From: a virus
Length of the DNA: 35,313 nt
Reading direction: 5' to 3' (one strand)
Virus record (IMG/VR): IMGVR_UViG_3300023178_002828
Location: 1-35,313 of that record
Below, in pieces: positions 802-30,299 of this stretch. Position 1 is the stretch's first letter; every line of letters begins with the position of its first letter. Below the pieces are notes generated by a model. It searched no databases. It saw only the letters and a list, made by a program, of their open reading frames with translations, and was not told the DNA's origin. A program made the position numbers and the translations under genes.

Positions 802-1429
802 AAATTTAAATTATCACGAAGATAGATGGTCAGAAGGCAATTATTCAAAAGAGGATTTAATCAATTTTGAAGATGATATCATTTCTCATTGGGAAAATGG
901 AGAAATTACAGGTCCTATACATTTATCAAATGGAAACGAAGAACAACTAATAGAAATATTCAAAAAAATATCTCCAACTGATTGGGTATTTTCAACTTGG
1001 AGGTCTCACTATCATGCACTTTTACATGGTGTGGAAAAAGATAAACTAAAACAAAAAATTCTTGATGGTAAATCAATCACAATTGTAGATAAAGATTCCA
1101 AATTCTATGCATCTGCAATTGTAACTGGTACTTTACCTATTGCATTGGGAGTTGCTAAATCAATTAAGTACAATGGTGGTGATGATAAAGTTTGGGTATT
1201 TTTGGGTGATATGGCATTTGAAAGTGGAATCTTTTATGAAGTTCACAAATATGCAAGAAACTATGATTTGCCACTTCACTTTGTGGTAGAAGATAATGGT
1301 GTATCTACAAATACACCAACATTGGATACATGGAATGGGATTCAGAGAGATGTACCAGAAGATGTGATATATTATAAATACGAATCTAAGTACCCACATT
1401 ATGGAACGGGAAAATGGGTAGTATTTTAA
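785..1429 (+). CDS. Thiamine-diphosphate-dependent E1-alpha-like subunit, minimal form
   Basis: This 214-residue protein resembles the ThDP-binding (PP) domain of 2-oxoacid dehydrogenase E1-alpha subunits. Visible marks are WRSHYHALLHGV at 72-83, ASAIVTGTLPIALGVA at 109-124, the diphosphate/Mg motif beginning GDM at 141-143 and continuing to EDNGVS at 169-174, then TPT and PHYGTGKWV at the C terminus. Normal E1-alpha chains are well over 300 residues, so this is a pared-down version. The complementary pyrimidine-binding half is encoded at 5695-6243, four genes away. In sugar clusters, E1-like pairs can transfer a two-carbon unit from pyruvate to a keto-sugar, as in aldgarose biosynthesis. That role here is inference from context. 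A second in-frame ATG at 791 is an alternative start. Confidence 0.82.
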   Translation: MQMEIKNLNYHEDRWSEGNYSKEDLINFEDDIISHWENGEITGPIHLSNGNEEQLIEIFKKISPTDWVFSTWRSHYHALLHGVEKDKLKQKILDGKSITIVDKDSKFYASAIVTGTLPIALGVAKSIKYNGGDDKVWVFLGDMAFESGIFYEVHKYARNYDLPLHFVVEDNGVSTNTPTLDTWNGIQRDVPEDVIYYKYESKYPHYGTGKWVVF

Positions 1430-2655: not shown

Positions 2656-3583
2656 AACAATATTAGTAACAGGTTGTAGTGGTTTAGTTGGAACTCACTT
2701 GGTAAACAAACTTCTACAAAAAGAATACATAGTGGTTGGTGTAGATATTAAAGAATCTACAAACTTACCACAAAATGAAAATTTTACATTTTTAAACTTA
2801 GATTTAAGAGATGTTGAAACGGTTGAAGCTCTTTTTCAAGAATTTGACTTTTATGGAGTTGTAAATGCATTTGGAATCAAAGGTTCACCAATCAGAGCAA
2901 AAGAAAGACCATTGGATTTTCTTGAACCATCTATAAAAGTTAATACAAATATTATAGAAAACTCTCACAAACACAATTGTTGGTTAGTATTTATGAGTTC
3001 GGTTGGCGTTTATGAACCAGCAGAAGAATTTGTAGAAGATACAGTATGGAAAACACTTCCATCACCAAACGATTGGTTTCCATCGTGGAGTAAAAGAATA
3101 CCAGAAATTTATTTGGAGGCATATAAAGTACAACACAATTGGGAAGATTGGACAATCGTAAGACCAGCAAATATTTTTGGTGAATATGATAACTTCGGTG
3201 AAGGTGCAACTGTAATCGGAGCAACTTGTAGAAAGGTTTATGAATCCGATGGTGAGATTGAAGCATGGGGAGATGGAACACCAACAAGAGATTTCATATA
3301 CGCTGGAGATGTTGCAGATGGTTGTATCAAATGTTTAGAAGATAAATTACATATAACAACTAACTTAGGTAGTGGTGAAGAAATATCAATCAAAAGAATG
3401 ATTGAAACTGTTGCTAAGGTTAGTGGTAAAGAAATAAAAATAAATTGGGATACTTCCAAACCCAATGGTGATATGAGAAGAAGAATGAGTACTAAGATAC
3501 AAGAACAATTCGGATTATTACCAAAACTTGGATTCGAAGAAGGTATAAAAGAAACATACAAATATTATGAACAAAACAGATAA
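2645..3583 (+). CDS. Extended SDR family NAD-dependent sugar epimerase/dehydratase, atypical active site
   Basis: The 312-residue protein starts with a Rossmann nucleotide-binding motif (TGCSGLVG, residues 9-16). It also has the FMSSVGVY strand with the active-site Ser (around 118-119), IVRPANIFGE at 171-180, WGDGTPTRDFIYAGDV at 208-223, and a GFEEGIKETY tail, all standard for UDP/GDP-sugar epimerases and dehydratases. The expected Tyr of the YxxxK pair appears to be missing. The aligned segment is FPSWSKR, with Lys at 150 and Pro at 146 where Tyr should be. Either another residue serves, the enzyme catalyses a different step, or it is a binding partner of the SDR encoded next. It overlaps the downstream SDR by 17 bases. 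Confidence 0.8.
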   Translation: MSGKTILVTGCSGLVGTHLVNKLLQKEYIVVGVDIKESTNLPQNENFTFLNLDLRDVETVEALFQEFDFYGVVNAFGIKGSPIRAKERPLDFLEPSIKVNTNIIENSHKHNCWLVFMSSVGVYEPAEEFVEDTVWKTLPSPNDWFPSWSKRIPEIYLEAYKVQHNWEDWTIVRPANIFGEYDNFGEGATVIGATCRKVYESDGEIEAWGDGTPTRDFIYAGDVADGCIKCLEDKLHITTNLGSGEEISIKRMIETVAKVSGKEIKINWDTSKPNGDMRRRMSTKIQEQFGLLPKLGFEEGIKETYKYYEQNR

Positions 3584-4559
3584 AATTTTAGTTACAGGTG
3601 CAAGTGGATTTATTGGTTCACGATTAATCAAGATGTTATACGAAAATGGGTACACCAACCTTAGAGCAACATCTTGGAGTAGAGATTTAAGAAACGATTT
3701 CGAAGGATGTGAAAATGTTGAGTTTTTAAAAGGAGATTTAAGAACTGCAGAATTTTGTGAAGAAGTATCAAAGGATGTAGATGTTGTATTTCATGCAGCA
3801 GCAAATACTTCAAATGCTTTAGATACAAAAGTGAATCCACTTCTTCATGTTACTCCTAATGTTGAAATGAATACAAACCTTATGGAACAAAGTTGGAGAA
3901 ACAAAGTTCGTAAGTTTATGTTTATTTCTTCTAATACAACATATCCAGATGTTGGTGAAGAGTATTGCACAGAAGATATGAATGTACAAACACCAAACAT
4001 CTATCCTGTTTACAAAGCAGTGGGTTGGATGAAGAGATATGGAGAAACTCTTTGTGAGTTCTTTTCAAATCAAATCCATGACCCAATGCAATGTGTAATT
4101 ATCAGACCATCTAACTCGTTTGGACCAAATGATAAGTACGATTTTGAAAAGTGTCATGTAACACCTGCGAATATCAGAAAAGTTGCAGATAATTTAAATC
4201 CAATTCCACTTTGGGGCGATGGTACTGAGGTAAGAGATATCATCCATGTTGATGATATGGTTAGTGGATTTATCACAGTTGCAGAAAATGTGGATACCTA
4301 TGATATCTACAATGTATGTTTTGGTAAAGGATATACTGTAATGGAAGTGTTAGAACTTATCAAAGAGATTGAGGGGAACGACAATCCAATTGAGTTTGTT
4401 AACAATAAAGCACCGATGATTCCAAAGAGATTATTATCAAATGAAAAATTATTAAAACTTGGTTGGAAACCAAAATACGATTTAAGAAGTGGATTAGAAG
4501 ATGCACTTCGTTGGTATAAAGAAAACAAAGACCAGTTTGACCCAAATTCAAGACCGTAA
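3567..4559 (+). CDS. Extended SDR family NAD-dependent sugar epimerase/dehydratase
   Basis: The 330-residue protein has the cofactor motif TGASGFIG (10-17), the FISSNTTYP active-site strand (119-127), an intact YPVYK catalytic pair (Tyr146, Lys150), RYGE at 157-160, IIRPSNSFGP, WGDGTEVRDIIHVDDM, and a C-terminal KLGWKPKYDLRSGLEDAL block. It is a complete, normal-length nucleotide-sugar epimerase, dehydratase or reductase. The YxxxKxxxExxxR-like spacing recalls GDP-L-fucose synthase-like members, but substrate cannot be assigned. Its stop shares one base with the next gene's ATG (TAATG at 4557-4561). It probably works with the adjacent SDR and the 3,5-epimerase on the same sugar. Confidence 0.87.
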   Translation: MNKTDKILVTGASGFIGSRLIKMLYENGYTNLRATSWSRDLRNDFEGCENVEFLKGDLRTAEFCEEVSKDVDVVFHAAANTSNALDTKVNPLLHVTPNVEMNTNLMEQSWRNKVRKFMFISSNTTYPDVGEEYCTEDMNVQTPNIYPVYKAVGWMKRYGETLCEFFSNQIHDPMQCVIIRPSNSFGPNDKYDFEKCHVTPANIRKVADNLNPIPLWGDGTEVRDIIHVDDMVSGFITVAENVDTYDIYNVCFGKGYTVMEVLELIKEIEGNDNPIEFVNNKAPMIPKRLLSNEKLLKLGWKPKYDLRSGLEDALRWYKENKDQFDPNSRP

Positions 4560-5698
4560 TGATTTCAACAATGATATTTGCAGGTTGTTCTTATACATGG
4601 GGACAAAGTTTGCATTTATATGGTGGTTTTAATGATGATAAACATCCTCGTGATGGGTTTTTCTATGACAAATTATTATTACCACATCATTATCAATATA
4701 ATGTAGATAATAGATTTGCAACAAAAGTTGCTGATTACTTTGGAAGAAAACCAATCGTGGCTGCTAGGAATGGAAATTCAAATCCATTAATGGTTACATG
4801 GATTTATCAAAAGTTAAAAGAAAATCCAAACACCGATTGTATTATAGTTCAGAGTACAAGTTTTGCAAGAGGATATAATCAACTTGGAGATGATAACAAA
4901 CAAATAGATGAATTTAATAAATTAATTAAGTTTGTAGAAGAAAAAGATATCTTAATAAGATTTATTCACATGGATTTGGGAGGTGAGCATTCTACATTAG
5001 AACTTTCAGAAGAAATTAAAAGTAGAACTATTTTATATGATAATAAATTGGATTTTTATCATACTATGTTAGTAGTAAACGAAAAAAGAGATTATAGAAC
5101 AATTGGTGCGGATTTCTCAAATAGTGATACACATTTTAATCTTAAGGGTCATGAGTATTTAACAAAAATTATTATTGAAGAATTAGAAAAAAGTAATTAC
5201 GAAAATGTTAAAAAAATAGAATTACCAAAGTTAGTAAAAAATAAAATTTTTAATAAGAATGATTTTGATTCATTATTGGATGTTGTAAAACATAATGATA
5301 AAAAACAATATTTACTATATTCTGTTGATAAAAATAATGTTGCTTATGATGAAGATTTGACTGATACTAATTTAATTGATGATGTAATCAAAAAATTACA
5401 AAATTTTAAATTATTAAATATTTGGTTAATGAAATATCCACCAAATTATAGTTTAGGATACCATCAAGATTCGACACACGATTCAAACAGATATGTTTAT
5501 GAAATACAGCCATCAGATAATTCATTTTTTGAATTTTTTAACTATAATAAAATATCTAAAATAGAAAATATTAATGATGATATATTATACATAGGTAATA
5601 CTTTTCATGATTTTAAAAATAATAGCAAAACAAATACAAGAATATCTGTGGTATTCGATACAAAACTAAAAATTAATAAAATAACAGATATATTATGA
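4559..5698 (+). CDS. SGNH-hydrolase-like domain fused to a 2OG-Fe(II) oxygenase-like domain
   Basis: The 379-residue protein shows two parts. Residues 1 to about 212 look like an SGNH/GDSL fold: GCSYTWG at 9-15 carries the block I Ser (S11), NGNSN at 71-75 fits the Asn block, and SDTHFNLKGHEYL at 189-201 fits the C-terminal Asp/His block. Residues from about 280 to 370 look like a 2-oxoglutarate/Fe(II) dioxygenase core: HQD at 302-304 (HxD), a distal His at 350 in NTFHDF, and Arg361 in RISVVFD as the likely 2OG-binding residue. The expected reactions are acyl/acetyl ester cleavage or transfer, and hydroxylation. The fusion in one chain inside a sugar operon is unusual. ATGA overlap (5695-5698) couples it to the next gene. 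The domain calls are pattern-based. Confidence 0.65.
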   Translation: MISTMIFAGCSYTWGQSLHLYGGFNDDKHPRDGFFYDKLLLPHHYQYNVDNRFATKVADYFGRKPIVAARNGNSNPLMVTWIYQKLKENPNTDCIIVQSTSFARGYNQLGDDNKQIDEFNKLIKFVEEKDILIRFIHMDLGGEHSTLELSEEIKSRTILYDNKLDFYHTMLVVNEKRDYRTIGADFSNSDTHFNLKGHEYLTKIIIEELEKSNYENVKKIELPKLVKNKIFNKNDFDSLLDVVKHNDKKQYLLYSVDKNNVAYDEDLTDTNLIDDVIKKLQNFKLLNIWLMKYPPNYSLGYHQDSTHDSNRYVYEIQPSDNSFFEFFNYNKISKIENINDDILYIGNTFHDFKNNSKTNTRISVVFDTKLKINKITDIL

Positions 5699-6243
5699 GT
5701 AAACCAGAATTTACACCATATGTAGATGCACTTACAGAAGCTATGAAACTTTGTATGGGCAATCCATCTACAATTTTTATTGGCCAACAGATTGTGTATT
5801 ACGGAAACCCAATGTCAAAAACCATTGAAGGTTTACCAAAAGATAGAATGATTGAAACTCCAGTAATGGAAGAAACTCAAATGGGAATGACAATGGGTCT
5901 TGCAATGACAGGACACCAAGTTGTTACTTTCTACCCAAGATGGGATTTTCTTATTCTTGCAGCAAACCAACTTATTAATCACTTGGATAAGTTAGAAGCG
6001 ATGTCTGATGGTGAGTGGAAACCAAACGTAATTGTAAGAGTTGGTAAAGGTTCTGATAAACCATTAGACCCTGGCCATCAACACAAAGCAAACTATACAG
6101 AACCATTCAAACAAATGTTAACAAATGTTACCATTCAAGATTTAAAATCATCAGAACAAATATTGCCTGCTTACAAAACAGCTTTATCTAAAGGTGGAAT
6201 ACATATATTAGTAGAATATCCTGAATTGTATTATGCAAGTTGA
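5695..6243 (+). CDS. Thiamine-diphosphate-dependent E1-beta-like (transketolase pyrimidine domain) subunit, minimal form
   Basis: The 182-residue protein matches the pyrimidine-binding domain of E1-beta/transketolase-type subunits. It has RMIETPVMEETQMGM at 51-65, with Glu59 in the position of the Glu that activates the cofactor aminopyrimidine. GLAMTGHQVV follows at 68-77, then AANQLINHLDKL at 89-100, IVRVGKGS, and a GHQHKANY loop. The C-terminal transketolase domain of a normal E1-beta (about 325 residues or more) is absent. With the PP-domain chain at 785-1429 it should form the smallest possible two-chain ThDP active site, comparable in size to sulfopyruvate decarboxylase subunits but E1-like in sequence. 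No E2 or E3 partner is encoded in the window, so a classic dehydrogenase complex is unlikely. Confidence 0.8.
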   Translation: MSKPEFTPYVDALTEAMKLCMGNPSTIFIGQQIVYYGNPMSKTIEGLPKDRMIETPVMEETQMGMTMGLAMTGHQVVTFYPRWDFLILAANQLINHLDKLEAMSDGEWKPNVIVRVGKGSDKPLDPGHQHKANYTEPFKQMLTNVTIQDLKSSEQILPAYKTALSKGGIHILVEYPELYYAS

Positions 6244-7639
6244 AAAAATAAAAAATCTGAATATAATTTATGATTTTAGAGGACCAAATGACTGGATTCC
6301 TAATGCATTAAATTACTATTATTCACAAAAATACTTTGAAAAAGATTTCGTATCAGATTTTGAATTACAAAATCATTTTTTTAAAAATTTTGTACAACCA
6401 TCTGTATTTAATGTATTTTTAAATTCAGACCATTTATTGTTTAATAAATTAACAATACATGATTACTTAAATAATACAAGATATAAAAATGATGTGTGTT
6501 TTTATCTCGTAGAGCCATTTGGTAATTTTAATCATTTTTTAGGAAAACAATTTGGAGGATTTTCAGAAAGTTGTTTTATAGATTTTATTTCGAAAGATAG
6601 TTTAAATAACATTAAAACAAATGATAATTTTTATCTTATTATAAACTATGGCACTGAGGGAGTATTTCCTATTGATTTTTTCTCTAATTTGTATGAAGTA
6701 TTAGAAAAATATGAAATACCAGAAAATAAAGTAATTTTATTATCATCCGCAGTTGATATTGAAACATTACATAAAAAAGTAAGAAACCATAATCCGAAAA
6801 AAGTAAAAATGGTTTACTGGCCATGGTCTTTACGATTTAAATCAAAAGAATTAAAAGAGATTTATGATGGGGTTGATTATAAATTTTGGGATGATATCGA
6901 CCAACAAAATAGTATTGTTAAATCTGAAGATTTAGATTCAAAAATTCGTAAAACAAAGTTTTTATTGATGAATAGAAGATTAAGACCTCAACGAATGATT
7001 TTGTTATGTTTGTTAGGTTTAGATTTTATAAAAGAAAACTTGGTTTCTTATGATATAAGTTTATTTGATAGAGAAAATGATTTATCATTTTACTTACATC
7101 ATGCAGGTGATGTTATAGGTGAGGAACTTTACGAAAAATCGTTTGATATTATAAACAATAAAAAAGAAACTATTGATTATGATGATATAAATTCTGTTTG
7201 GGGATTTAATTTTGAAAACAAACAACCTTACTTAGATTCATATATTAATATTTGTACCGAAACAAATTTTTATGAAGATGGTTTATACCTTTCAGAAAAA
7301 ACTTGGAAACCAATAGGACATTTACAACCATTTATACAAGTTAATAAAGCTGGTGCATTACAAGAATTACGAAATATAGGTTTTAAAACATTTTCACCTT
7401 TTATAAATGAAGAGTATGATAATGAACATAATGATGCGTTAAGAATAAAAATGATTTCTGATGAAATACTAAGATTAAATTCGTTATCAACTGAAGAAAT
7501 ACATAATTGGTATGATTCAATTAAAGATATACTTATACATAATCAATCTTTACTTTTTAAATATGCTGAAAGTAAACAAGATACTGAAAGAGAATTTATA
7601 ACAAACTTAAAAAATTATGTGGTTGATAAAAAAAATTAA
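6233..7639 (+). CDS. Putative glycosyltransferase-like protein, paralogue of 1414-2655
   Basis: The 468-residue protein shares its second half with the product of 1414-2655. The common blocks are KFLLMNRRLRPQRM, YLDSYINICTET, LYLSEKTWKPI, a QPFIQVNKAGALQEL block, GFKTF, NEEYD and the ...EILRLNSLS.EE helix. The first 200 residues are different and contain hydrophobic strands such as NFYLIINYG and KVILLSSAVD, compatible with an N-terminal GT-B lobe. Having two diverged copies at either side of the SDR/ThDP core suggests two transfer steps or two acceptors. The assignment is tentative because no catalytic residue can be named. It overlaps the previous gene by 11 bases and the following tiny gene by 23. 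Confidence 0.48.
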   Translation: MQVEKIKNLNIIYDFRGPNDWIPNALNYYYSQKYFEKDFVSDFELQNHFFKNFVQPSVFNVFLNSDHLLFNKLTIHDYLNNTRYKNDVCFYLVEPFGNFNHFLGKQFGGFSESCFIDFISKDSLNNIKTNDNFYLIINYGTEGVFPIDFFSNLYEVLEKYEIPENKVILLSSAVDIETLHKKVRNHNPKKVKMVYWPWSLRFKSKELKEIYDGVDYKFWDDIDQQNSIVKSEDLDSKIRKTKFLLMNRRLRPQRMILLCLLGLDFIKENLVSYDISLFDRENDLSFYLHHAGDVIGEELYEKSFDIINNKKETIDYDDINSVWGFNFENKQPYLDSYINICTETNFYEDGLYLSEKTWKPIGHLQPFIQVNKAGALQELRNIGFKTFSPFINEEYDNEHNDALRIKMISDEILRLNSLSTEEIHNWYDSIKDILIHNQSLLFKYAESKQDTEREFITNLKNYVVDKKN

Positions 7640-7758: not shown

Positions 7759-7777
7759 CTGATAAGGTATATTGAAT

Positions 7778-10700
7778 ATGAATGAACTTTCACAATATCT
7801 CGTAGAGCAAATGCTCTTAGAGGATGAAAATCCTATTAAAAAGGTCGTAGTAATTTATGGTGGTAGATTTCAACCATTCCATAAAGGACACTATGGCACA
7901 TACCAACACCTTGTCAAAAAATTCGGTAAGAATAATGTTTTTATCAGTACTTCCAACAAAGTAGAAAAACCCAAATCACCTTTTAACTTCAAAGAGAAGG
8001 TGAAAATCATGACTACGATGTTCAATATACCTAAATCAAAAATAGTACAGGTAAGAAACAATTATGCACCGAAAGAAATCCTCGATAAATACGATAAAGA
8101 AACAACTGCCTTCGTAACCGTTGTTGGTGAGAAAGATTCTGGTAGATTAGGTGGAAAGTATTTTAGACCATGGAAAGGAAAGGCCGAAATTGGTTATGAA
8201 GAGGGTGGATATGTTTATGCTTCACCATCACAAGGTAGGGGTATAAGTGGAACTGAAACTCGTAATGGGTTATCAGTTGGTTCGGATGAACAAAAACAAA
8301 ACTTCTTTAAGAATCGTGCATATGGAAAGTTCAATATGACGATTTTCAAAATGATTACTGATAAACTTAATGAAGGAATTGAGATTCCTAAAGAAGTAAT
8401 TGAAGAATGGCTCATCAATGAGAGTTCTAACTTAGGTGGGAACGCTGGAAGTGATGTTGATGATGGGCCAAGCTTCTTTTTTCCAAATTACGATGTGTTT
8501 TCAAAGGTAAATATAGATAGAGCTAAGAAAATAGGTTGGGAAGTTCTTAATATGATTACCACACAAGAAATCGAAGATTATTATGACCACCCAAACTATC
8601 CAAATGGACCTGTTAAGGCAACTTCATTCTTTCCAGCAGGTATTATTGGTAATATGACTCCCAACAACCAGATAGATATTTACTCAAGTGGTGCATACTC
8701 ACAATGGTTTAAACATGCAACCCGTAAGGCAACTTTAGCTGGATATGAATTAGTAAAATCAATTTCTGCAAAAGCTGATATTTCTCAAGATAAAAATCAA
8801 TCTGGTAATTTAGCAAAAGGTGATAAAGAATTGAAAGATGAATTTGAAAATTCTTTAAACGAAAATATTGTATTACCTGTTAAGGTTGGTGATACTATCC
8901 TAACGGGTAGATTTAAAAATAAAAAAGTAACTGTAAAAACAATTGGTAAAGATGAACATGGAATGCCAACTATCAATGGTAAAAAGGTAGTAACCTTTAG
9001 ATTGATGAAAGAAGGTTTCCAAGCAATATTTGAAGATGAAAAAGAAGATGAGAAATATACCCATGTAGGTAATGGTAACTATAAACTAAAAGGTAAAGAA
9101 GGTGAAGATGACCCAACTTTCAAAAAAGATGATAGTGGAAAATATATTGAGTTAGATAAAGATGGTAAAACTAAACCACAGCCAAAACAAGGTACATCTT
9201 TAAAACAAGGTGGGTATGACAATAAAGTAAAAAAAGAAAAAGAGATTCAAAAAAAGATTAGTGGAGATACTTCAAATGAAAAACCACAACCCAAAGAAGA
9301 ACCAAAATCAAAAGTAACAACTTTACAAGGAAAAAAGTCTGGTAAAGAAATTCAAAATCTTGGTTTAGATGGTGGTGGTAAAGTATATGGAACGGAGCAC
9401 GGAGAAACCGCAATGGTTGATGATATCCTTGATGATGTTAAAAAGAACATACCAAAAGAAAGATGGAAAGATATTGTATTCGTAGGTGAAGGTGGTGCAA
9501 CTGGAGATAATGGTGAATTAGAATTCAATGATGAAATGGATTATGCTGTTCCTAAATTCAAAGAATTGGGTGCAGGTATTGATACATGGGATGGTGATGA
9601 AATGGATGTTCATAATGACCAATCCAAATTGTATAAAAGACAAATGGAAAAAACTGGTCTTAATCAATCACAAGTTAATGCAGGTAATTGGGCAAGTATG
9701 ATTGGACAGGGTGAAGGAACTGATACCATGAGTCCTGATGATTTTTTAGATGATGAAGGAAAAGAATACATACAATCTGCAGCAAAAGAGGCAGGATTTC
9801 CTCCAATAGAAAATTGGGAGAATCCAACAGGTGAAACCCCAAGTGATGAAAATGATTGGAAAGGAAGTGGCGATAAAGGAACATTATATCGTTTAGCATT
9901 TCCAGAAGATAACAAAGATAAACAAACAAAGATAGGTGATATTCAAGATGCATTTAATGAAACAAGAGATGAACACCTTATTAAAAAAAGTAAAGAATTA
10001 TCTTCTCAAGGAAAAATACCAATTGTCATAGCAGGTGAATCTCATGTAGGGTTGGTTGATAAAATGATGAAGAATGAATCTATTGGTTTAAGAGAATCTA
10101 TTGCTGGAACAGAAGTTAAGTGTGAGAAATGTAATCACTCTTGGGAAATAGAATCAGAAGATACTGAAAAATACTTATGTCATTCTTGTGGTTGGGATTC
10201 ACAAAAACAAGAATATGATTTTGATGCATTTGATTCTTGGCAAGAAAAAATGGGATTATCTGAAGATGTAGATATAGATGAAAGAAGTAAAGGAAAGTTA
10301 AGACCAGCAGATTTACTAAGAAGAAAGGCTAAAATGGCTGGTAAACGAGCACAGATTCAACGAAGAAGAGCTCGTACCATGAAAAGAAGAAAATCTATTG
10401 ATAAACTTAAAAAGATTGCATACAAAAAAGCATACTTAGAAGTTTACAAAGAATTTATGGAAGATTTGTTTCCTGGTAAAACAAAAGCAGAATTAACTAT
10501 TCAACAGGCAAAGGTAGTTCATAAAAATGTACTTAGAAAAAAGAAAAGAGTTTTAAAAAGAGCAAGATTTAAGTTCTTACCTAAACTTAGAGATGCAGAA
10601 GTAGATAAATTTGATAACAAATCAAACATTTCATTTAATAAACCAAAAGAAACAAATGAAATGTCTAAATCTACTCTTAATAAGATTGAAAAATATGCTG

Positions 10701-13036
10701 AGAAACAATTATCACCAGAAGATATTGAGTTCACAAAACATTTTTTCGATAGATTGAACGACCCTCGTAATGGAAAAGAAATTTCTGATGCAGAATTGAC
10801 GGGATTTTTTAAAAGATTATCAAAGTATAAAAAGAAATTTAAAGAATTCTTAGAAAAATATCAACAAATCGTTGTAAAAGATAAAAGACATGATATCAAT
10901 ATTCCATTTGTTAAACAAGCAAATCAGATTATTGCAAAAACAGTAATGAGAAAGGATGATTTTAAAACATCTAACCCTGTTCTTGCATTTGAACAACTTG
11001 CAAAAGGTATGAGTTTAAGAGATATTGCAGAAAAACACGAAGTTTCTTTCGAAGAATTAAAGAAAGAAGCAGGAAAAGGTGTTAAAGTTGAAATGGAACA
11101 CACTTCAGATGTAAAAGTTGCATACGATATCGCTAAAGACCACTTATTCGAGGACCCAAAATACTACACAAAACTTGCAACCATAGAGGAAGTAGGAGTT
11201 GGTACTGGTCAAAGTGGTATTCGTATGGGATATCCATCTAAAGATGATTTAAAACGAATCGAAAAAAGAGTTAAGAAACAAAGAAATAATACTGATTCAA
11301 ATCAAGAGTATCAATATGAACCAATTAGAGAAGGTAAAGAACTTAAAAAATTAGGAATCACCGATTTCAAATCACTCTTTAAGAAAATGCCATCTGATTT
11401 ACAAAAGAGAGTGTATAACTTAAAGAACTTTGGACAGAGAATTGATAAACACCCTGAAGGGAATGTACTTAAACATACAATCACAGTTGTAAATCGTTCA
11501 ATCAAAGAAGATGATATCGATATTGCAATCGCAGCAATGTTCCACGATATAGGAAAAGATGAAACTGCGGGAATTCATCCAAAGAAAGGACATATCACAC
11601 ACTTTGGACATGAGAAAGTATCTGCTAATTTAGTAAATAAGTACAAAAAATGGATTGAATCAGTTGGTGGTAATGTAGATACGGTTCACTATATAGTAAA
11701 AAATCATATGAGATACAAACAACTATCTGATATGAGACCTAAGAAACAATCTGATTTAAAATCTCATCCAAATTTTGATAAATTAAGTAAGTTTTCTAAA
11801 CATGATAGAGGTGGATTAGGAGAAGGTATCATTACAGAAGGTGGTGCGTATGGACATATGTCTCACCCATTCGATACTGATATCAATTTAACCTTTGGAC
11901 AATTAAAAGATATCGTAAATCGTGCACTCGAAGGTACACTTGAGTTTACAAGAGAGAAAACTGATGGTCAAGCTCTTGCAATTTCATGGAGAGATGGAAG
12001 ATTAGTAGCAGCTAGGAACAAAGGACACCTTAAAAACAAAGGTGAGAACGCATTAGATATCAAAGGTGTATCAGATAAGTTCCAAGGTAGAGGTGGATTA
12101 TCAGATGCTTACAACTATGCAATGAAAGACCTTTCAAATGCTATATCTTCTCTTAACGATAAACAAAGAGATAAGATTTTTAAACAAGGTGCGTGTTTTA
12201 TGAACCTTGAAGTGATATATCCAACATCAGTTAATGTAATTCCTTACGGTCAAGCGTTACTTGTATTCCATGGAACGATGGAATATAACGATGAGGGTGT
12301 TGCAATTGGTGAAAATGGTGAGGCTGCAAGAATCTTGGCAGGTATGATTAAACAAGTTAACAAAGATGTACAAGATAATTATACGATTCAAGGCCCACCT
12401 GTTGTAAAACTACCTAAATCTACCGATTTATCAAAGAAAAGAAGTAAATATTCATCTCAAATCTCTAAATTACAAAAAGAATTCGGATTAAAGGATACGG
12501 ATGGTGTTGCAAACTACCATCAAGCATGGTGGGAACAATGGGTTGATAAAAATTCACCATCAACACTTGATAACAAAACTAAAATGGGGTTAGTTAAGAG
12601 ATGGGCATTCATGGATAAGAAGTTTAGATTAGATAATAAGAATATTACTGATTCTAAAACACTTGAATGGGCTAAAAAGATAGATAAAGAGGACCAAAAG
12701 AAGATTTCTAAACAGAATTTAATGAAGTTTGAACAGATTTTCTTAGGATTAGGAGCAGAAGTGTTAGAATTTACTTCATCTGCTCTAACTGTAAACCCTG
12801 ATGCAGCAGTTCGTGATATGAAAAAGAGAATTGATAAAACAATCAAGGATGTTAAGAAATCAGGAGACCCAAAAAAGATAGAAAAACTTAAATTAGAACT
12901 CCAAAGATTAAATTCTATTGGAGGTTCTAAAAAAATAGTACCGAATGAAGGTATAGTTTTCTTATATAATGGAAATACCTTCAAACTTACAGGTACATTT
13001 GCATCAGTAAACCAAATACTTGGTATTTTCTTCTAA
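7778..13036 (+). CDS. Giant multidomain virion polyprotein (nucleotidyltransferase, zinc ribbon, DUF5661-like, HD, ligase-like)
   Basis: The ATG at 7778 is preferred over TTG 7772 because AAGG at 7764-7767 is better spaced; the product has 1752 residues. Domains in order: a cytidylyltransferase-like fold at about 15-200 (FHKGH near 35, ISGTETR near 157); an unknown segment; a possible hydrolase-like region at 540-760 (EHGE, VGEGG, GESH); a CxxC...CxxC zinc ribbon at 782-804; a very basic stretch at about 835-920; a virion-type domain at about 980-1070; a DUF5661-like segment from about 1101; an HD phosphohydrolase (FHDIGK, His1256-Asp1257); and a nucleotidyl-ligase-like domain with EKTDG (Lys1394) and NLE (Glu1478). 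Sites matching T4 gp21 cleavage (I/L-x-E before G/S) fall between domains: LINE/S ~215, LRE/S 773, IRE/G 1185, ITE/G 1354. I infer an internal capsid polyprotein cut during maturation. Confidence 0.75.
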   Translation: MNELSQYLVEQMLLEDENPIKKVVVIYGGRFQPFHKGHYGTYQHLVKKFGKNNVFISTSNKVEKPKSPFNFKEKVKIMTTMFNIPKSKIVQVRNNYAPKEILDKYDKETTAFVTVVGEKDSGRLGGKYFRPWKGKAEIGYEEGGYVYASPSQGRGISGTETRNGLSVGSDEQKQNFFKNRAYGKFNMTIFKMITDKLNEGIEIPKEVIEEWLINESSNLGGNAGSDVDDGPSFFFPNYDVFSKVNIDRAKKIGWEVLNMITTQEIEDYYDHPNYPNGPVKATSFFPAGIIGNMTPNNQIDIYSSGAYSQWFKHATRKATLAGYELVKSISAKADISQDKNQSGNLAKGDKELKDEFENSLNENIVLPVKVGDTILTGRFKNKKVTVKTIGKDEHGMPTINGKKVVTFRLMKEGFQAIFEDEKEDEKYTHVGNGNYKLKGKEGEDDPTFKKDDSGKYIELDKDGKTKPQPKQGTSLKQGGYDNKVKKEKEIQKKISGDTSNEKPQPKEEPKSKVTTLQGKKSGKEIQNLGLDGGGKVYGTEHGETAMVDDILDDVKKNIPKERWKDIVFVGEGGATGDNGELEFNDEMDYAVPKFKELGAGIDTWDGDEMDVHNDQSKLYKRQMEKTGLNQSQVNAGNWASMIGQGEGTDTMSPDDFLDDEGKEYIQSAAKEAGFPPIENWENPTGETPSDENDWKGSGDKGTLYRLAFPEDNKDKQTKIGDIQDAFNETRDEHLIKKSKELSSQGKIPIVIAGESHVGLVDKMMKNESIGLRESIAGTEVKCEKCNHSWEIESEDTEKYLCHSCGWDSQKQEYDFDAFDSWQEKMGLSEDVDIDERSKGKLRPADLLRRKAKMAGKRAQIQRRRARTMKRRKSIDKLKKIAYKKAYLEVYKEFMEDLFPGKTKAELTIQQAKVVHKNVLRKKKRVLKRARFKFLPKLRDAEVDKFDNKSNISFNKPKETNEMSKSTLNKIEKYAEKQLSPEDIEFTKHFFDRLNDPRNGKEISDAELTGFFKRLSKYKKKFKEFLEKYQQIVVKDKRHDINIPFVKQANQIIAKTVMRKDDFKTSNPVLAFEQLAKGMSLRDIAEKHEVSFEELKKEAGKGVKVEMEHTSDVKVAYDIAKDHLFEDPKYYTKLATIEEVGVGTGQSGIRMGYPSKDDLKRIEKRVKKQRNNTDSNQEYQYEPIREGKELKKLGITDFKSLFKKMPSDLQKRVYNLKNFGQRIDKHPEGNVLKHTITVVNRSIKEDDIDIAIAAMFHDIGKDETAGIHPKKGHITHFGHEKVSANLVNKYKKWIESVGGNVDTVHYIVKNHMRYKQLSDMRPKKQSDLKSHPNFDKLSKFSKHDRGGLGEGIITEGGAYGHMSHPFDTDINLTFGQLKDIVNRALEGTLEFTREKTDGQALAISWRDGRLVAARNKGHLKNKGENALDIKGVSDKFQGRGGLSDAYNYAMKDLSNAISSLNDKQRDKIFKQGACFMNLEVIYPTSVNVIPYGQALLVFHGTMEYNDEGVAIGENGEAARILAGMIKQVNKDVQDNYTIQGPPVVKLPKSTDLSKKRSKYSSQISKLQKEFGLKDTDGVANYHQAWWEQWVDKNSPSTLDNKTKMGLVKRWAFMDKKFRLDNKNITDSKTLEWAKKIDKEDQKKISKQNLMKFEQIFLGLGAEVLEFTSSALTVNPDAAVRDMKKRIDKTIKDVKKSGDPKKIEKLKLELQRLNSIGGSKKIVPNEGIVFLYNGNTFKLTGTFASVNQILGIFF

Positions 13037-16038: not shown

Positions 16039-16055
16039 ATAAGGAGAAAAATATT

Positions 16056-18275: not shown

Positions 18276-19148
18276 ATGAGAAAAATAAAGCATTCAAAAT
18301 TTAAAAACACAGGATTTCTTTTCGAGCTATTAACTCGACAAGTTACCCTTGAAATTATCAATGGTAATGAGGAAAGGGCCAAAGGAATTATCAGAGAATT
18401 CTATGGTAAAGGTACTGAATTATCTAAAGAACTTAGATTATTTAACCTTTTAATAAACGAAAAATATAATACAGATTCAAAGGCTGAAAAGTTTATTGAT
18501 GTTGTATTGGAGGCACATACTAAATTAGATTATAAAAAACTTCAACGAGAAAAGTATAATCTTGTAAAAGCTATCAAGGAAAACTTTGAAATTAATAATT
18601 TCTTATCTTCCCCGGTAACAAACTATAAAATTTTAGCTTCAATTCACAAACTATTTGAAGGTAAAAAGAATGATATCCTTGATATTAAAGATGTATTCGA
18701 TTCAAAACTTACTCTTGTAGAACATATCTCATCTAATTCCCCAGCTACATTAAAAGAAAAAGAAGATAAGTTAGTAGAAGAATACAGAAAACAAGAAAAA
18801 GATTTAAGATTATTGACGTACAAGATTCTTGTTGAAACATTTAACAAAAAATATACAAACTTAAATGAATCTCAAAAAGGTTTATTGAGAGAGTATATTA
18901 ATAATGTTAATAACACTTCAAAGTTCAACGAGTATTTTGAAAAAGAATTAATCAAAACTATCACTTCTTTACACGAAATGTATAAAGGAATGAAAGATAA
19001 GATTACAAAAATCAAGTTGAGAGAAACAATTAATGTTTTGAAAAAACAAAAAATTGGTAAAAAGATTACCGATGAGCAAGTTTCAGCTTTGATGATGTCT
19101 TATGAATTGATTAAGGAGATAAAAAATGTCAATGGAAAAAACTCTTAA
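18276..19148 (+). CDS. Helical prohead-core-like protein next to portal
   Basis: The 290-residue protein is almost entirely charged and helical in character. It opens with KHSKFKNTGFLFELLTRQVT. A K(Y/F)(R/K)NTG.LFELL.RQ.T start is one I associate with conserved proteins located just after the portal in marine T4-like phages. T4 carries the core proteins gp67 and gp68 at this spot, so a prohead-core or capsid-assembly role is likely by position, but sequence identity to gp67/68 is not evident. No (I/V)NE/G-type repeat is present, although LNES at about 196-199 would fit a weak cut site. Its last 23 bases overlap the next gene. Confidence 0.5.
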   Translation: MRKIKHSKFKNTGFLFELLTRQVTLEIINGNEERAKGIIREFYGKGTELSKELRLFNLLINEKYNTDSKAEKFIDVVLEAHTKLDYKKLQREKYNLVKAIKENFEINNFLSSPVTNYKILASIHKLFEGKKNDILDIKDVFDSKLTLVEHISSNSPATLKEKEDKLVEEYRKQEKDLRLLTYKILVETFNKKYTNLNESQKGLLREYINNVNNTSKFNEYFEKELIKTITSLHEMYKGMKDKITKIKLRETINVLKKQKIGKKITDEQVSALMMSYELIKEIKNVNGKNS

Positions 19149-21604: not shown

Positions 21605-23032
21605 ATGATTAAATTAGGTGGTCTTGTTGATTTAAAACCGATTACTGAAGCAGATGTATTCACTGCTACAAGTAAAGAAACTGGTACAACTTCTGTATTC
21701 AAATCTAAAGCTGCGAGAGATGCTGCAATAAAAGCAGGAACTCATGAAAAAAGAAAAGATGATAAAGATGGTGGAGTCAAAGACCCATCTAAAAAAGATA
21801 CACCTAAAGTAAACATCTTCAACAAAGATAAAGAAGAACCTAAATCTGAACCAAATTCAGAACCTTCTAAATCATATCTACCATACTCTGATGATGCATA
21901 CAATGAGATAGAAGAAATAAGTTCAGCTGATGCACTATTAGATTATGCAGAATCAAAAGAAGGTTTATCGGATGAACAAAGAAAAAAATTAAAAGATTTA
22001 GCCGCAGATTGGGAAGATGCAGAAGGTGAAATGATGATGGGTGGAGATGATGATGAATATGAAGAAGCAACATCAGAAATTACAGCTAAAGCTATGGAAG
22101 TAGTACTTGGTCCGTATGATACTTGGCCAGAACCAAAACAAGATGAACCAAAATCAGAACCATCTCAACCAAAATTAGAATCAGACCCTCAAGCTGAAAA
22201 AGTTGCTGATAAGATTTCCAAAAAATATGGCATCACTCCTCAAAAAATGGGTGAAGAAGATTATAAGGTTGCAATGGGTAGAGCTGTTTATTCGGCATTA
22301 ACTAATTCTAACTTCCATACTGAAGCAAGAGAGTTAATTGCAGTTTTAGAAGATAAACCAGAACTTGCAAAAAGACCAGAGTATCCTTCAATATCAGACC
22401 CAGATTTCGACAAGAAAATGGGTGATATTAGAAAAAAATATGCTTCTACATATAGTGAAAGAGATGATTATTCATCGGCATTGGGTAGAGAAACTTCAGA
22501 TGCAGCTGAATGGGATGGAGTTAAATCAGTAGGAACTCTAACTAAACAACTACGAGATAATGGTATGAGTGATTTTGCTGATAAAATCGAATCTATCTTT
22601 GATAAGAAAGAATATATGAAGAAAGAAGGTAGAATTAGTATTTCAAATCTTGTTAAAGAAAATATAATCAACGAAGGAACTCGTTCACAAGTTGGTATCA
22701 TTGATAGAAGTGGTAAGATTGCATCAGCATATGTTCACTACGATGGTTATCCATCAAATATGAAACCAGGCCTTAAAAAACACATGAAGAATGAAAAAGA
22801 TGTTCTTAAGTTAATTAAGAGTGGTGGTGCAAGAGGAATCTATAATGATAAAGATATTGAATATTACAAAAGTGGAAAACCAACTAAAGGTAATCTAAAA
22901 GATTTTGGTAAATATGTAGATGCTGCTGATAGAAACGGTATGGCAGAATATGTATATTTATACAATATGAAAGATAAGAAGTGGTACTTCGCTGATGTTT
23001 ATGGTGATAAAAAATTAAAAAAATTATTTTAA
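21605..23032 (+). CDS. Modular cargo-like capsid-internal protein with FKSK module and C-terminal released domain
   Basis: The ATG at 21605 (475 residues) has GGAG at 21591-21594 with a 10-base spacer, so it is chosen over an ATG at 21560 inside the previous gene. Parts in order: a leader ending PITE/A (an I-x-E/A cut site); an FTATSK...TSVFKSKAARDAAIKAGTHE module (about 17-48) shared with 25048-26433; an acidic, Glu-Pro/Ser-rich linker; a helical middle domain; then VKENIINE/G (near 22660-22678) and a C-terminal domain with AYVHYDGYPSNMKPGLKKH and EYVYLYN, which looks like an independent small fold. I infer capsid-internal processing at both sites. Function is unknown. Confidence 0.55.
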   Translation: MIKLGGLVDLKPITEADVFTATSKETGTTSVFKSKAARDAAIKAGTHEKRKDDKDGGVKDPSKKDTPKVNIFNKDKEEPKSEPNSEPSKSYLPYSDDAYNEIEEISSADALLDYAESKEGLSDEQRKKLKDLAADWEDAEGEMMMGGDDDEYEEATSEITAKAMEVVLGPYDTWPEPKQDEPKSEPSQPKLESDPQAEKVADKISKKYGITPQKMGEEDYKVAMGRAVYSALTNSNFHTEARELIAVLEDKPELAKRPEYPSISDPDFDKKMGDIRKKYASTYSERDDYSSALGRETSDAAEWDGVKSVGTLTKQLRDNGMSDFADKIESIFDKKEYMKKEGRISISNLVKENIINEGTRSQVGIIDRSGKIASAYVHYDGYPSNMKPGLKKHMKNEKDVLKLIKSGGARGIYNDKDIEYYKSGKPTKGNLKDFGKYVDAADRNGMAEYVYLYNMKDKKWYFADVYGDKKLKKLF

Positions 23033-23042
23033 GGAGAGAACA

Positions 23043-23756
23043 ATGAAACTAACCCAACTAATGAAAGAAAATGAAGAAAGACCTCTATCAACAGAGGTTA
23101 AAAAACATTTTCTTGAAATTGTTTCTACTTACAACAAGTATCAAGAATCAATGGATAGGAAATCAGATATTACTCAAGTAGCAGAAACACTTGGTGGAAT
23201 TACTGAGGCTGCTAGAACACTTGCTATTAGAGAAGCAGGAGATTGGTTCGATAAACATACTGTTAAGAGAAACATGAGTGAATTGGATAAGTTGGGTAAA
23301 CAATTCGATAAAGTTGCTCTTGAAGCTCGTGCACTTGACCAAAGAATGGCAGGATTATACGAAGATATGGGACACATCCTTTCAAGATACTATAAGTTCG
23401 GAGAGATTACAGAGGACCAAATGAAACAAAGATTGGGTATCAAAGAATCTACTGAAGATTGTGGATGTGATTCAATTAATGAAACACCAGTAATGGTTTC
23501 CAAAAGAAATTCTAATGGAACTATTACTACTACTCTTAAAGAAGTAACTGATTTAAACGAAGAAGAAATGAAACTCTATGAGTTTGGTCAGAAAGTAGAA
23601 AAATTAATGGAAAAAAGTTGTCCTACTGATAAAGGTAAATGGGCAGCATCCAAAGCAGCAGCTAAATCTAAATTTGATGTTTATCCATCTGCATACGCAA
23701 ATGGTTGGGCAGCAAAAAATTACAAATCAAAAGGTGGTGGTTGGAGAGACTGTTAA
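23043..23756 (+). CDS. Cargo-like virion protein with YPSAYAN C-terminal motif
   Basis: The 237-residue protein follows a strong RBS (AAGGAG). The leader MKLTQLMKENEE matches the cargo group. A helical domain (about 18-125) includes REAGDWFDKHTVKRNM and RMAGLYEDMGHILSRY, phrases I associate with proteins of marine T4-like phages. A Cys pair (CGC) and SINE/T at about 145-148 follow. The C-terminal module, KGKWAASKAAAKSKFDVYP then SAYANGWAAKNYK, is a small Lys/Ala-rich domain widespread in phages. Domain shuffling between such pieces is typical. Role unknown; DNA or capsid-interior binding fits the basic composition. Confidence 0.55.
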   Translation: MKLTQLMKENEERPLSTEVKKHFLEIVSTYNKYQESMDRKSDITQVAETLGGITEAARTLAIREAGDWFDKHTVKRNMSELDKLGKQFDKVALEARALDQRMAGLYEDMGHILSRYYKFGEITEDQMKQRLGIKESTEDCGCDSINETPVMVSKRNSNGTITTTLKEVTDLNEEEMKLYEFGQKVEKLMEKSCPTDKGKWAASKAAAKSKFDVYPSAYANGWAAKNYKSKGGGWRDC

Positions 23757-23765
23757 GGAGTAGAT

Positions 23766-25047: not shown

Positions 25048-26433
25048 ATGAGACTAAGAGATTTATTACCAGAACAAGAAACATTTACGGCTACTAACAA
25101 AAAGAGCGGAAAAACTTCAGTATTCAAATCTAAAGATGCAAGAGATAATGCAATCAAAGCAGGAACTCACGAACCTATTGAAAAGAAAGGTGATGAAAAA
25201 TCTGATAAACAGAAATCGCCTGGTAAAGTAAGTGGGAAAGATATGTTTCAACATTCTCCTGATATCAAAAAAGATAAAGAAGAACCTAAAAAAGATAATC
25301 AAGAAGATTGGGATGGGAAAACACTTCCAAAAACTCCAGCTTTTAGTGGTGATAGAGAAACTGGTTATTTGAGTGATATAACTAATACCATGGATATGTA
25401 CAAAAGTGGTAAAGTGAATAGTAGTCCGGAAGCAAGAGATAAATATTTTAAAGAATTGGAGAATGAGGTTATTTGGTCGTTTGAGAATTTCATACATGAC
25501 GCAGGATATAAAAAATCTGATGTTGACGTAGATTCACTTCGAAAAAAAGTTGATGAATTATATAAAAATGTAATGGGTGATGAAGAATATACTGAAGATA
25601 CAATGGGTACAAAAATCACACCTGCTCAGAACCAAGAAATTCAAAATGAAATAGGTAGAATAGCTAAAGAAATTTCGCAAAAAATTGACAACCCAACAGA
25701 ACATACTCGAAAAGAGTGGGATAGAAATATGCCAAAAAACTCTGATATGTTTGGTGAGGGTGATAATCAAATAGATTTCGACCAAAAAGAGTTCAACGAT
25801 GGAGAAATTTGGTATCAACAATCTGCAGAAGATATTAATAAAGAAGGAAGTTATGATAATTTTATAGGAACTACTCAGAGGGTCTACGATGAAATGAGAG
25901 ATTGGCTTCGTTCCAATACAAATCTCGATAGAGAAGAAGTATCCGATATGCTGTCAGGCCTTTATGGGAAAACTTTGAAAATGCAAAAAGACGCAGAAAG
26001 ATTTGATAAACTTTCAGCCTTTCATAAGAGAGAAGTTGAAGATGAAGTAGGTCATTTAGCTAATTTAATTGGAAAAAAGTACAAACAACCAAAACCTGAA
26101 CCAAAACCTGAACCAAAACCTGAACCAAAATCAGAACCAAAATCAGAACCAAGAACTGAACCAAGACCTGAACCAAAACCTGAACCATCGCCAGAAGAAA
26201 AGGCTAGAAAAGAATTAAGTGGTGCAACTGCTTTAGGATTTAGTGATATTGAAAAATTAGGTTCTAAAGCTGCTAGTGATATTGATATGGCAGTTAGAAG
26301 AGACCCTAATTATACTCGTGGTAGTAGACCTGGTGATGATGATAGATTAAGAGCTAAAAAAGCAAAAGAATTAGGATATATAGATGAAGTTAAATCAATG
26401 AAACTAATAGATTTATTACCTAATTTAAAATAA
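25048..26433 (+). CDS. Modular cargo-like protein with FKSK module and PKPE repeat linker
   Basis: The 461-residue protein starts with MRLRDLLPEQE, a leader of the cargo type. It then carries the FTATNK...TSVFKSKDARDNAIKAGTHE module (about 12-42) shared with 21605-23032. A helical, acidic middle follows, then a Pro/Glu repeat linker encoded by eight 12-bp units (26089-26184), and a final small helical domain. The last residues, MKLIDLLPNLK, nearly repeat the gene's own leader, with close DNA identity. This looks like a relic of a joined gene or of recombination at leader sequences. Function unknown. Confidence 0.52.
   Translation: MRLRDLLPEQETFTATNKKSGKTSVFKSKDARDNAIKAGTHEPIEKKGDEKSDKQKSPGKVSGKDMFQHSPDIKKDKEEPKKDNQEDWDGKTLPKTPAFSGDRETGYLSDITNTMDMYKSGKVNSSPEARDKYFKELENEVIWSFENFIHDAGYKKSDVDVDSLRKKVDELYKNVMGDEEYTEDTMGTKITPAQNQEIQNEIGRIAKEISQKIDNPTEHTRKEWDRNMPKNSDMFGEGDNQIDFDQKEFNDGEIWYQQSAEDINKEGSYDNFIGTTQRVYDEMRDWLRSNTNLDREEVSDMLSGLYGKTLKMQKDAERFDKLSAFHKREVEDEVGHLANLIGKKYKQPKPEPKPEPKPEPKSEPKSEPRTEPRPEPKPEPSPEEKARKELSGATALGFSDIEKLGSKAASDIDMAVRRDPNYTRGSRPGDDDRLRAKKAKELGYIDEVKSMKLIDLLPNLK
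26089..26184 (+). repeat. Eight tandem 12-bp units (consensus CCAAAACCTGAA) coding a PKPE-type linker
   Basis: Units start at 26089, 26101, 26113, 26125, 26137, 26149, 26161 and 26173. Some carry TCAGAA or AGAACTGAA variants. They encode alternating Pro-(Lys/Arg)-(Pro/Ser/Thr)-Glu, an extended flexible linker. Copy number may vary between related phages. Confidence 0.9.
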
Positions 26434-26801
26434 TGCAACTCCAACAACTATTTAACGAAATCATAGAAGAAAACAGATGTATCCATTGTGGAAACATTGT
26501 TAACGAAGATTTGCGTAATTGGTTCAAATCAAAGTGGGTTAATATTGGTAAGAAAGATAAAAGTGGAAAACACCCACCATGTGGAACAAGTGGTGATAAG
26601 AGTGGATATGCTAAATGTGTTCCAGCTGCAAAAGCAAAAACTATGAGTAAAAAAGAAAAAGAATCTGCAACTCGTAGAAAAAGAGCGGCTCAAAACAAAG
26701 CAGGTAGAGGTGGAGTTAATTCACCAGGACAAGGTAAAAAACCTATAAATGTATCTACACATACAAAAGGAAGAAAATCAGGAACTGGAAAAGGTTCTTA
26801 A
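26433..26801 (+). CDS. Small basic cargo-like virion protein with leader and IVNE/D site
   Basis: The 122-residue protein begins MQLQQLFNEIIEEN, then has a CxxC pair (RCIHCGN) and IVNE/D at about residues 22-25, followed at once by DLRNWFKSKWVNIGKKDK. This body (KWVNIGKK...GKHPPCG, GYAKCVPAAKAKTMS, KESATRRKRAAQNKAG) is a module I associate with small conserved proteins of T4-like and other large phages. The tail is very basic with Gly and Ser. The predicted leader would remove the CxxC pair upon cleavage. DNA binding inside the capsid would suit its charge; the actual role is unknown. It starts one base before the upstream stop ends. Confidence 0.55.
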   Translation: MQLQQLFNEIIEENRCIHCGNIVNEDLRNWFKSKWVNIGKKDKSGKHPPCGTSGDKSGYAKCVPAAKAKTMSKKEKESATRRKRAAQNKAGRGGVNSPGQGKKPINVSTHTKGRKSGTGKGS

Positions 26802-26803
26802 TA

Positions 26804-26815
26804 TATACTTATATA
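26804..26815 (+). promoter_or_regulatory. Variant late-promoter-like element TATACTTATATA
   Basis: Matches the recurrent 12-mer except for C at position 5. It lies in the 42-base gap between the cargo genes and the bS21-like gene, 28 bases before the ATG at 26844. It may give weaker or separately timed expression. Confidence 0.4.
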
Positions 26816-26843
26816 AAACATTGTTACAATTAAATAAAGGAGA

Positions 26844-27149
26844 ATGAGTAAAAACAAAACATTGGTATCTGTTAAAGTATTTAAAGGAGATATTAACAGA
26901 GCATTAAAAAAATTCAAAAGAGGTGTAATAGAATCAAATCATCTACAAGAACTACGAGATAGAAAAACTTACACAAAACCCAAAACAATTCGTAGAAAAC
27001 AAAAACAACAGGCAATTAGAGAACAACAAAAACTAACTATTTTAGAAAAAATAGAAAATGGTGATAGTAAAGCTATGATGTTTTTTAGAAAAAAGAAAAG
27101 AAAAAAATCCAATAAACCACAAAATAAAAATAAATCTACTCAAAAATAA
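26844..27149 (+). CDS. rpsU-like: Phage-encoded ribosomal protein bS21 homologue
   Basis: The 101-residue protein shows the bS21 pattern in its first 60 residues: VSVKVFKGDINRALKKFKR, then a LQELRDRKTYTKP segment, then a basic helix (RRKQKQQAIREQQK). This aligns with E. coli bS21 features (ALRRFKR, R.REFYEKP, long basic helix). bS21 sits at the 30S platform near the anti-Shine-Dalgarno end of 16S rRNA and affects initiation. The extra C-terminal 30-40 residues, almost all Lys/Arg/Asn, are longer than typical. The GGAG at 26839-26842 is only one base from the ATG, unusually close for efficient initiation. Phage bS21 homologues are known in other large and marine phages. Position just before scaffold and capsid genes suggests late expression. 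Confidence 0.8.
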   Translation: MSKNKTLVSVKVFKGDINRALKKFKRGVIESNHLQELRDRKTYTKPKTIRRKQKQQAIREQQKLTILEKIENGDSKAMMFFRKKKRKKSNKPQNKNKSTQK

Positions 27150-27167
27150 CCTTTTTGTTATAGATTG

Positions 27168-27179
27168 TATATTTATATA
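27168..27179 (+). promoter_or_regulatory. Late-promoter-like element TATATTTATATA before the scaffold/capsid unit
   Basis: An exact copy of the recurrent 12-mer, but 145 bases before the ATG at 27325, far more than the 17-38 bases at the other sites. It would drive the gp22 and gp23 genes up to the terminator at 30197. Confidence 0.55.
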
Positions 27180-27324
27180 CTGAATAACCCACCTAATGTG
27201 GGTTTTATACTTAGGTTAATGAATACCCACGATTCTTATGTGAGGTGACCAAAAAAACCTTTACAAACTAATCTTATTGAAAATCCCTTAATATTTTCAC
27301 GAAACAAAACGAAAGGTAACTATT
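27180..27324 (+). promoter_or_regulatory. Long structured leader before the scaffold gene
   Basis: The 145-base leader begins with a 7-bp hairpin: AACCCAC 27186-27192, loop CTAAT, GTGGGTT 27198-27204. Competing pairings exist: GTGGGT 27198-27203 with ACCCAC 27225-27230, and ACCTAA 27191-27196 with TTAGGT 27211-27216. Two tiny ORFs overlap the stem (ATG 27196 to TAA, 7 codons; ATG 27218 to TGA, 9 codons). This may be an attenuator, an mRNA-stabilising 5' hairpin, or a protein-binding operator. I see no known riboswitch signature. The scaffold RBS (AAGG 27312-27315) is outside the structure. Confidence 0.4.
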
Positions 27325-28497: not shown

Positions 28498-28525
28498 TTA
28501 ACAAAATTATTAAGGAGATAAAAAA

Positions 28526-30268: not shown

Positions 30269-30299
30269 AGTATAATTGTATAACTAAGGGAGAAAATAT

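Follow-up and report, generated by a model that had tools for sequence, protein, structure and literature searches.

The bS21 Gene and Its Genomic Neighborhood

The stretch of DNA analysed here, a virus record of 35.3 kb, is referred to below as the window. An ORF encoding 101 aa and opening with an ATG is located at 26844-27149 on the plus strand. Its product is a real bS21, as profile PF01165 matched residues 9-61 with an E-value of 1.1e-11 and 44.7 bits, relative to a gathering cut-off of 27, confirming the identity proposed in the initial annotation. The bS21 chain of F. johnsoniae (7jil) aligned to the protein ungapped, with chain residues 11-56 corresponding to residues 16-61 of the phage protein. 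The predicted structure has helices at residues 17-31 and 33-39 and a long helix at residues 49-71, after which there is a basic, low-confidence tail. The best Foldseek matches of this model were ribosomal chains of the bS21 type, but their E-values were above 1. To our knowledge, phages encode bS21 more often than any other ribosomal protein; a phage bS21 is a gene of a kind already known, and it is what accompanies the gene here that is new.

The gene lies within a T4-like head cluster, with genes for the terminase (terL, 14431), portal (16477), protease (approximately 20820), a scaffold-like protein (27325) and the major capsid protein (MCP) gp23 (28526), and is on the same strand as these structural genes. 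It is preceded by a small ORF at 26433 and followed by the scaffold-like and MCP genes, consistent with its earlier description as being next to capsid genes. By terL, a Flavobacterium phage was the closest isolate. The isolates nearest in terminase and MCP included Flavobacterium phage immuto (56% and 51%, respectively) and "Microcystis phage" Mel-JY01 (55% and 53%). A bS21 gene is also located upstream of the MCP gene in Mel-JY01 and in the 484-kb phage LR756508, and no bS21 was among the matches listed for immuto. No cellular relative was found when genomes were initially scanned with the phage bS21 alignment.

Several other features of the head module were observed. A single ORF of 1754 aa (7772-13036) has a nucleotidyltransferase-like start (GGRFQPFHKGH) and, by eye, HD-like and ligase-like stretches; in immuto, a NadR-like gene is annotated near the matching place. 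Many head-module ORFs between 16056 and 26801, including that at 26433-26801 before bS21, open with a short MK..L..E stretch, and these starts resemble, at the sequence level, the leaders that target internal head proteins to the capsid. Between bS21 and the scaffold gene is a leader (27150-27324) conserved in 19 relatives, which contains a TATATTTATATA box, a conserved ATGAATACCCAC...GTGACC stretch, a TGAAAAT/ATTTTCA hairpin and a 7-bp hairpin, AACCCAC-CTAAT-GTGGGTT. The sides of the latter stem change together across the relatives (AACCTAC/GTAGGTT, AATCCAC/GTGGATT, AGTCTAC/GTAGACT and AACACAC/GTGTGTT). No Rfam family reached threshold in this leader.

Residue 59 and the Basic Tail of the Phage bS21

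Within the bS21 core (residues 9-61), Arg59 aligned without a gap to Tyr54 of the F. johnsoniae chain, and this arginine was nearly invariant among 41 relatives. Tyrosine was present at position 54 in 80 of 80 Flavobacterium-group bS21 sequences. In F. johnsoniae, Tyr54 stacks on A1534 of the 16S rRNA and helps hide the anti-Shine-Dalgarno (anti-SD) sequence; the Y54A change or loss of the bS21 C-terminus increased translation from strong-SD mRNAs, and ribosomes without bS21 read SDs (PMC9976891). Arginine is usual at this position in cellular bS21 of other Bacteroidota classes. It is therefore not foreign to bS21, and arginine alone may not free the anti-SD.

The extended basic tail remarked upon in the initial annotation is real: the long helix ends at residue 71, and residues 72-101 are basic and predicted with low confidence. 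The tail is kept in the window's clade and makes the phage protein longer than the bS21 of hosts (64 aa in F. johnsoniae). Values of dN/dS were 0.11-0.37 in the core, indicating purifying selection, and 0.14-0.81 in the less constrained tail. Two Arg-type relatives that have no tail (G014 and G015, bS21 of approximately 69 aa) had SDs on 17/26 late versus 6/32 early genes, and the tail is thus not required for the late-SD pattern described below. Separately, the loci L065-L067, close kin of the window's bS21 family, have tyrosine at the site that hides the anti-SD and are without the AGGAGA leader (see below); no late genes were recognized in G008, the sole labelled contig of this type.

SD Sequences in the Window and the Leader of the bS21 Gene

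The window had been described as having many strong AAGGAG sites. This held in part: broad SD motifs preceded 16 of 25 head-module genes (a count in which one start, 21608, was set wrong by a few bases) versus 0 of 8 surface-sugar genes (p=0.003). By the strict measure, AGGAG or GGAGG at canonical distance, 6 of the 31 called window genes had an SD. On the plus strand, AAGGAG was present before the MCP gene (28512-28517, at canonical spacing) and before the head-module genes at 16056 (16041-16046), 19126 (19113-19118), 23043 (23031-23036) and 23766 (23755-23760), and the neck-protein gene has AAGGGAG (30286-30292). The eight genes of the surface-sugar module (217-7639, plus strand) have no SD at all and provide an internal contrast to the head module.

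The bS21 gene itself has an SD-like AGGAGA (26838-26843, plus strand) abutting its ATG with 1-nt spacing. Only a single base separates GGAG (26839-26842) from the ATG, as had been noted from the sequence initially, and AGGAGA-ATG was found before 27 distinct related bS21 proteins. Across 21 distinct leaders the hexamer was unchanged, with no variation at positions -6 to -1, -10 and -11. The 136 AGGAG sites of other genes in the same loci were all 4-13 nt away, most often 6-8 nt, and the 1-nt spacing is not a product of chance. By what is generally known of SD spacing (reportedly from Chen et al., 1994, as cited in PMC5303271), AGGAGA at 1 nt from the ATG cannot be an ordinary SD. A downstream start served by this odd SD was rejected, as neither the window nor the relatives inspected had an ATG, GTG or TTG 4-13 nt beyond it. 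Also rejected was GGAGAATG as a genome-wide motif, its 3 matches being near chance.

Strict SDs were found on 110 of 356 other genes in loci with the AGGAGA leader versus 39 of 434 in loci without it (p=4e-15). The confinement of the leader to SD-rich loci supports anti-SD pairing as its function. A different explanation, which concerns the leader only and is compatible with the switch proposed below, is that AGGAGA-ATG is no SD but serves as a processing site or is bound, as an operator, by an RNA-binding repressor of the phage. The fixed distance to the ATG and the fully conserved hexamer do look like a unit that includes the start codon, but an operator or processing site does not account well for a leader present in the SD-rich loci and not in the SD-poor bS21 loci. 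In addition, the GGAG-cutting RegB nuclease family (PF10715) was absent from G001-G003, and cleavage by RegB was discarded as a candidate. We consider the operator or processing-site explanation doubtful.

SDs Are Found on Late Genes

Genes were called with a simple ATG-ORF script and classed as early or late from their homologues among the annotated genes of immuto, Mel-JY01 and T4. An SD was scored as AGGA, GGAG or GAGG at -18 to -4, and the region from -38 to -24 served as a mock. In the window's clade, 67 of 97 late genes had an SD versus 4 of 27 early genes (mock 2/97 and 0/27). In G007, G010 and G004, which have Bacteroidia-type promoters, SDs were present on 18/48 late and 0/46 early genes. 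When genes were labelled by promoter, an SD was found on 42/85 genes with the TATA(T/C)TTATA late box versus 1/13 with host-type promoters, and in the other group on 8/47 versus 1/60. The structural region of G001 (276 kb) at 100-160 kb had SDs on 21/41 genes versus 4/60 at 0-40 kb, which is the mock level; stretches at 40-80 and 220-240 kb were among others also bearing SDs. We found no report of late-specific SDs in such phages in the literature searched. This split within genomes is the strongest evidence for the interpretation below.

Control phages were scored as well. T4 had SDs on 19/28 late and 20/32 early genes, with no early/late difference. In immuto, a Flavobacterium phage without bS21, the counts of 3/30 late and 1/27 early genes were at background level. 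Late SDs were on 0/18 genes in FCL-2, 0/6 in phi38:1 and 7/19 in crAss001 (mock 2). Phages whose bS21 has an aromatic residue at position 54 were at background, with late SDs on 5/84 genes (mock 5/84), versus 147/212 (mock 4/212) for those with arginine. On a per-phage basis, among those having two or more late genes, the pattern was present in 36/36 Arg-54 versus 3/26 aromatic-54 phages. In the MCP tree, however, the phages split deeply into an Arg-type and a Tyr-type clade, so that the contrast between them is confounded by descent and is nearly one event. Two phages of the wider Arg-side clade in which an Arg-type bS21 is absent, immuto (no bS21) and LR756508 (Met at the site), have no late SDs, which fits the switch, although only two late genes were labelled in LR756508. 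There were also exceptions: in Mel-JY01, which has lysine in this position, early genes bear SDs too (5/12), G013 has SDs throughout with no clear early/late difference, the Tyr-type L391 has SDs (9/38), and crAss001 has the late SDs given above (7/19). The notion that SD use is a plain reflection of host type was dropped once early and late genes were considered separately, and it is also undercut by immuto, a true Flavobacterium phage without host-type promoters.

Promoter-Like Boxes and the Host

A late-type promoter-like box, TATATACTTATATA, precedes the bS21 gene (26802-26815, plus strand) and is followed by GTTACA at 26823-26828. The TATATTTATA box was present upstream of window genes 7 times versus 0.1 in shuffles and 0 times on the other strand, and bS21 has the TATACTTATA variant of this late-type box. 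As a side observation, a TTTTCGTATATTTATA motif was strongly enriched between genes in G001 (L107-L120) and G007 (L127-L140); it precedes SD-poor genes (2/20) and so may mark an earlier promoter class.

Bacteroidia-type promoters were scored as TTG-N17-23-TAnnTTTG against shuffled sequences and numbered 30 versus 2.6 in G007, 18 versus 1.8 in G010 and 10 versus 1.4 in G004. In Mel-JY01 (PP395634.1; L103, L165) there were 8 versus 0.5 in shuffles, and the true host of this phage may therefore be a Bacteroidota bacterium that was a companion in the culture. Host-class profile scores on the window's bS21 did not separate and indicated no clear host class. An MCP search for a host in 395 Bacteroidota genomes returned nothing, an empty answer that is uninformative for that search.

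These data bear on the possibility that the window's clade infects hosts that, like most bacteria, make use of SDs, in which case the SDs would be ordinary and the phage bS21 a spare ribosomal protein. The SD-rich members of the clade showed no enrichment of Bacteroidia-type promoters (G001, 5 versus 3.2 shuffled), as would suit such hosts, as would the SDs throughout G013 and the lack of a clear host class for the window's bS21. However, immuto, a proven Flavobacterium phage, is also without these promoters, and their absence thus proves nothing on the host. An SD-using host leaves the nearly SD-less early genes (4/27; 0-40 kb of G001 at mock level) unaccounted for, and T4, which grows in such a host, shows no such split. 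Furthermore, the relatives with Bacteroidia-type promoters have SDs on late genes only, and two of them, G004 and G007, nest inside the window's clade in the MCP tree, which favors an SD-blind host. We therefore regard ordinary SD use by the host as rather unlikely.

A Proposed Late Switch in Translation

Based on these findings, we propose that the phage bS21 is made late and would take the place of its host counterpart on the 30S subunit. The host protein of Bacteroidia helps to conceal the anti-SD via Tyr54; with arginine at that site and a different C-terminus, the phage protein would leave the anti-SD exposed on exchanged ribosomes, which would then prefer the SD-bearing late phage mRNAs. 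The early genes, mostly without SDs, would be read by unmodified ribosomes. If reading is SD-blind early in infection, late SDs pay only if the ribosomes change. The AGGAGA at the bS21 start would be too close for a productive SD and would be ignored while the anti-SD is hidden. Once the phage bS21 is installed, it may trap or misplace ribosomes, a negative feedback that would be the mirror image of host rpsU. If the leader regulates, its sign is probably opposite to that of host rpsU autoregulation.

We give about an even chance to the proposal that late phage bS21 replaces that of the host and frees the anti-SD, so that formerly SD-blind ribosomes read late mRNAs, with its own SD as a brake. 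The fuller statement, that a Tyr-less bS21 is swapped in to convert SD-blind Bacteroidota ribosomes to SD reading, that SDs are consequently on late and not early genes, and that the too-close SD limits the swap, is made more tentatively, at somewhat below even. From the observed protein family, residue change, late-specific SDs and conserved leader, we infer the ribosome exchange, the anti-SD release, the feedback and the SD-blindness of the window's host.

It is also conceivable that another late phage factor, or loss of the host bS21, enables SD reading, and that the phage bS21 just completes the 30S subunit. The SD reading of F. johnsoniae ribosomes lacking bS21 (PMC9976891) is in keeping with this, as is the occurrence of Arg-54 in cellular bS21 of other classes. 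In addition, the bS21 of phage HTVC008M enters E. coli ribosomes, which then translate poorly (PMC6375957). However, the aromatic-54 phages have orthologous late genes and a bS21 gene in the corresponding neighborhood, yet their late SDs are only at the mock level, and immuto, without bS21, has none above background. This explanation thus appears improbable to us. A late bS21 without the anti-SD-hiding tyrosine would be the simplest cause, in agreement with the Y54A and C-terminal-deletion results (PMC9976891).

The suggestion in the initial annotation that the protein tunes initiation is partly supported by the late-gene SDs, the arginine in place of Tyr54 and the background-level controls, while its mechanism stays at the level of a proposal. 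The late-biased SD code turns this idea of tuning into a specific, testable switch, for which the residue and the target mRNAs can be named and which has a control built in. If this is true, the phage would stand as a clear example of viral production of specialized ribosomes. The role of bS21 for phages has been open, and late-biased SDs in phages may here be tied to an SD-blind lineage.

Comparison with Known Systems

Chen et al. (2022; PMC9723584) described bS21-encoding Bacteroidetes myoviruses, predicted late use of the gene and proposed exchange of the protein into host ribosomes. In both those phages and the window, bS21 is near the terL, portal, protease and MCP genes. In the former, bS21 is on the opposite strand and has an aromatic residue 54, whereas in the window it is on the same strand and has Arg59. 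Several of our Tyr loci, with bS21 on the strand opposite the head genes, have the layout of Chen et al., and loci of this layout had no SDs on late genes. The window differs further from those phages in the longer basic tail of its bS21, the late-type box before the gene and the SDs on late genes.

Pelagibacter phage HTVC008M also encodes a bS21, shown to enter E. coli ribosomes; it differs in its host group, and the available part of that report makes no link to SD usage (PMC6375957).

The autoregulation of rpsU in F. johnsoniae (PMC9976891) is similar in having an SD on a bS21 gene and an anti-SD hidden by bS21. The self-control envisaged initially, by host-like autoregulation, does not carry over in that form, as the host gene uses a long SD (9-13 bp) at normal spacing, and 67 of 80 Flavobacterium-group rpsU genes had AGGAG at a distance of 11 nt from the start codon. 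The phage SD, in contrast, is approximately 7 bp (AAAGGAG) and 1 nt from the ATG. The strong conservation of AGGAGA at this wrong spacing is consistent with self-control of another kind, in which the mis-spaced SD of the bS21 gene may act as negative feedback.
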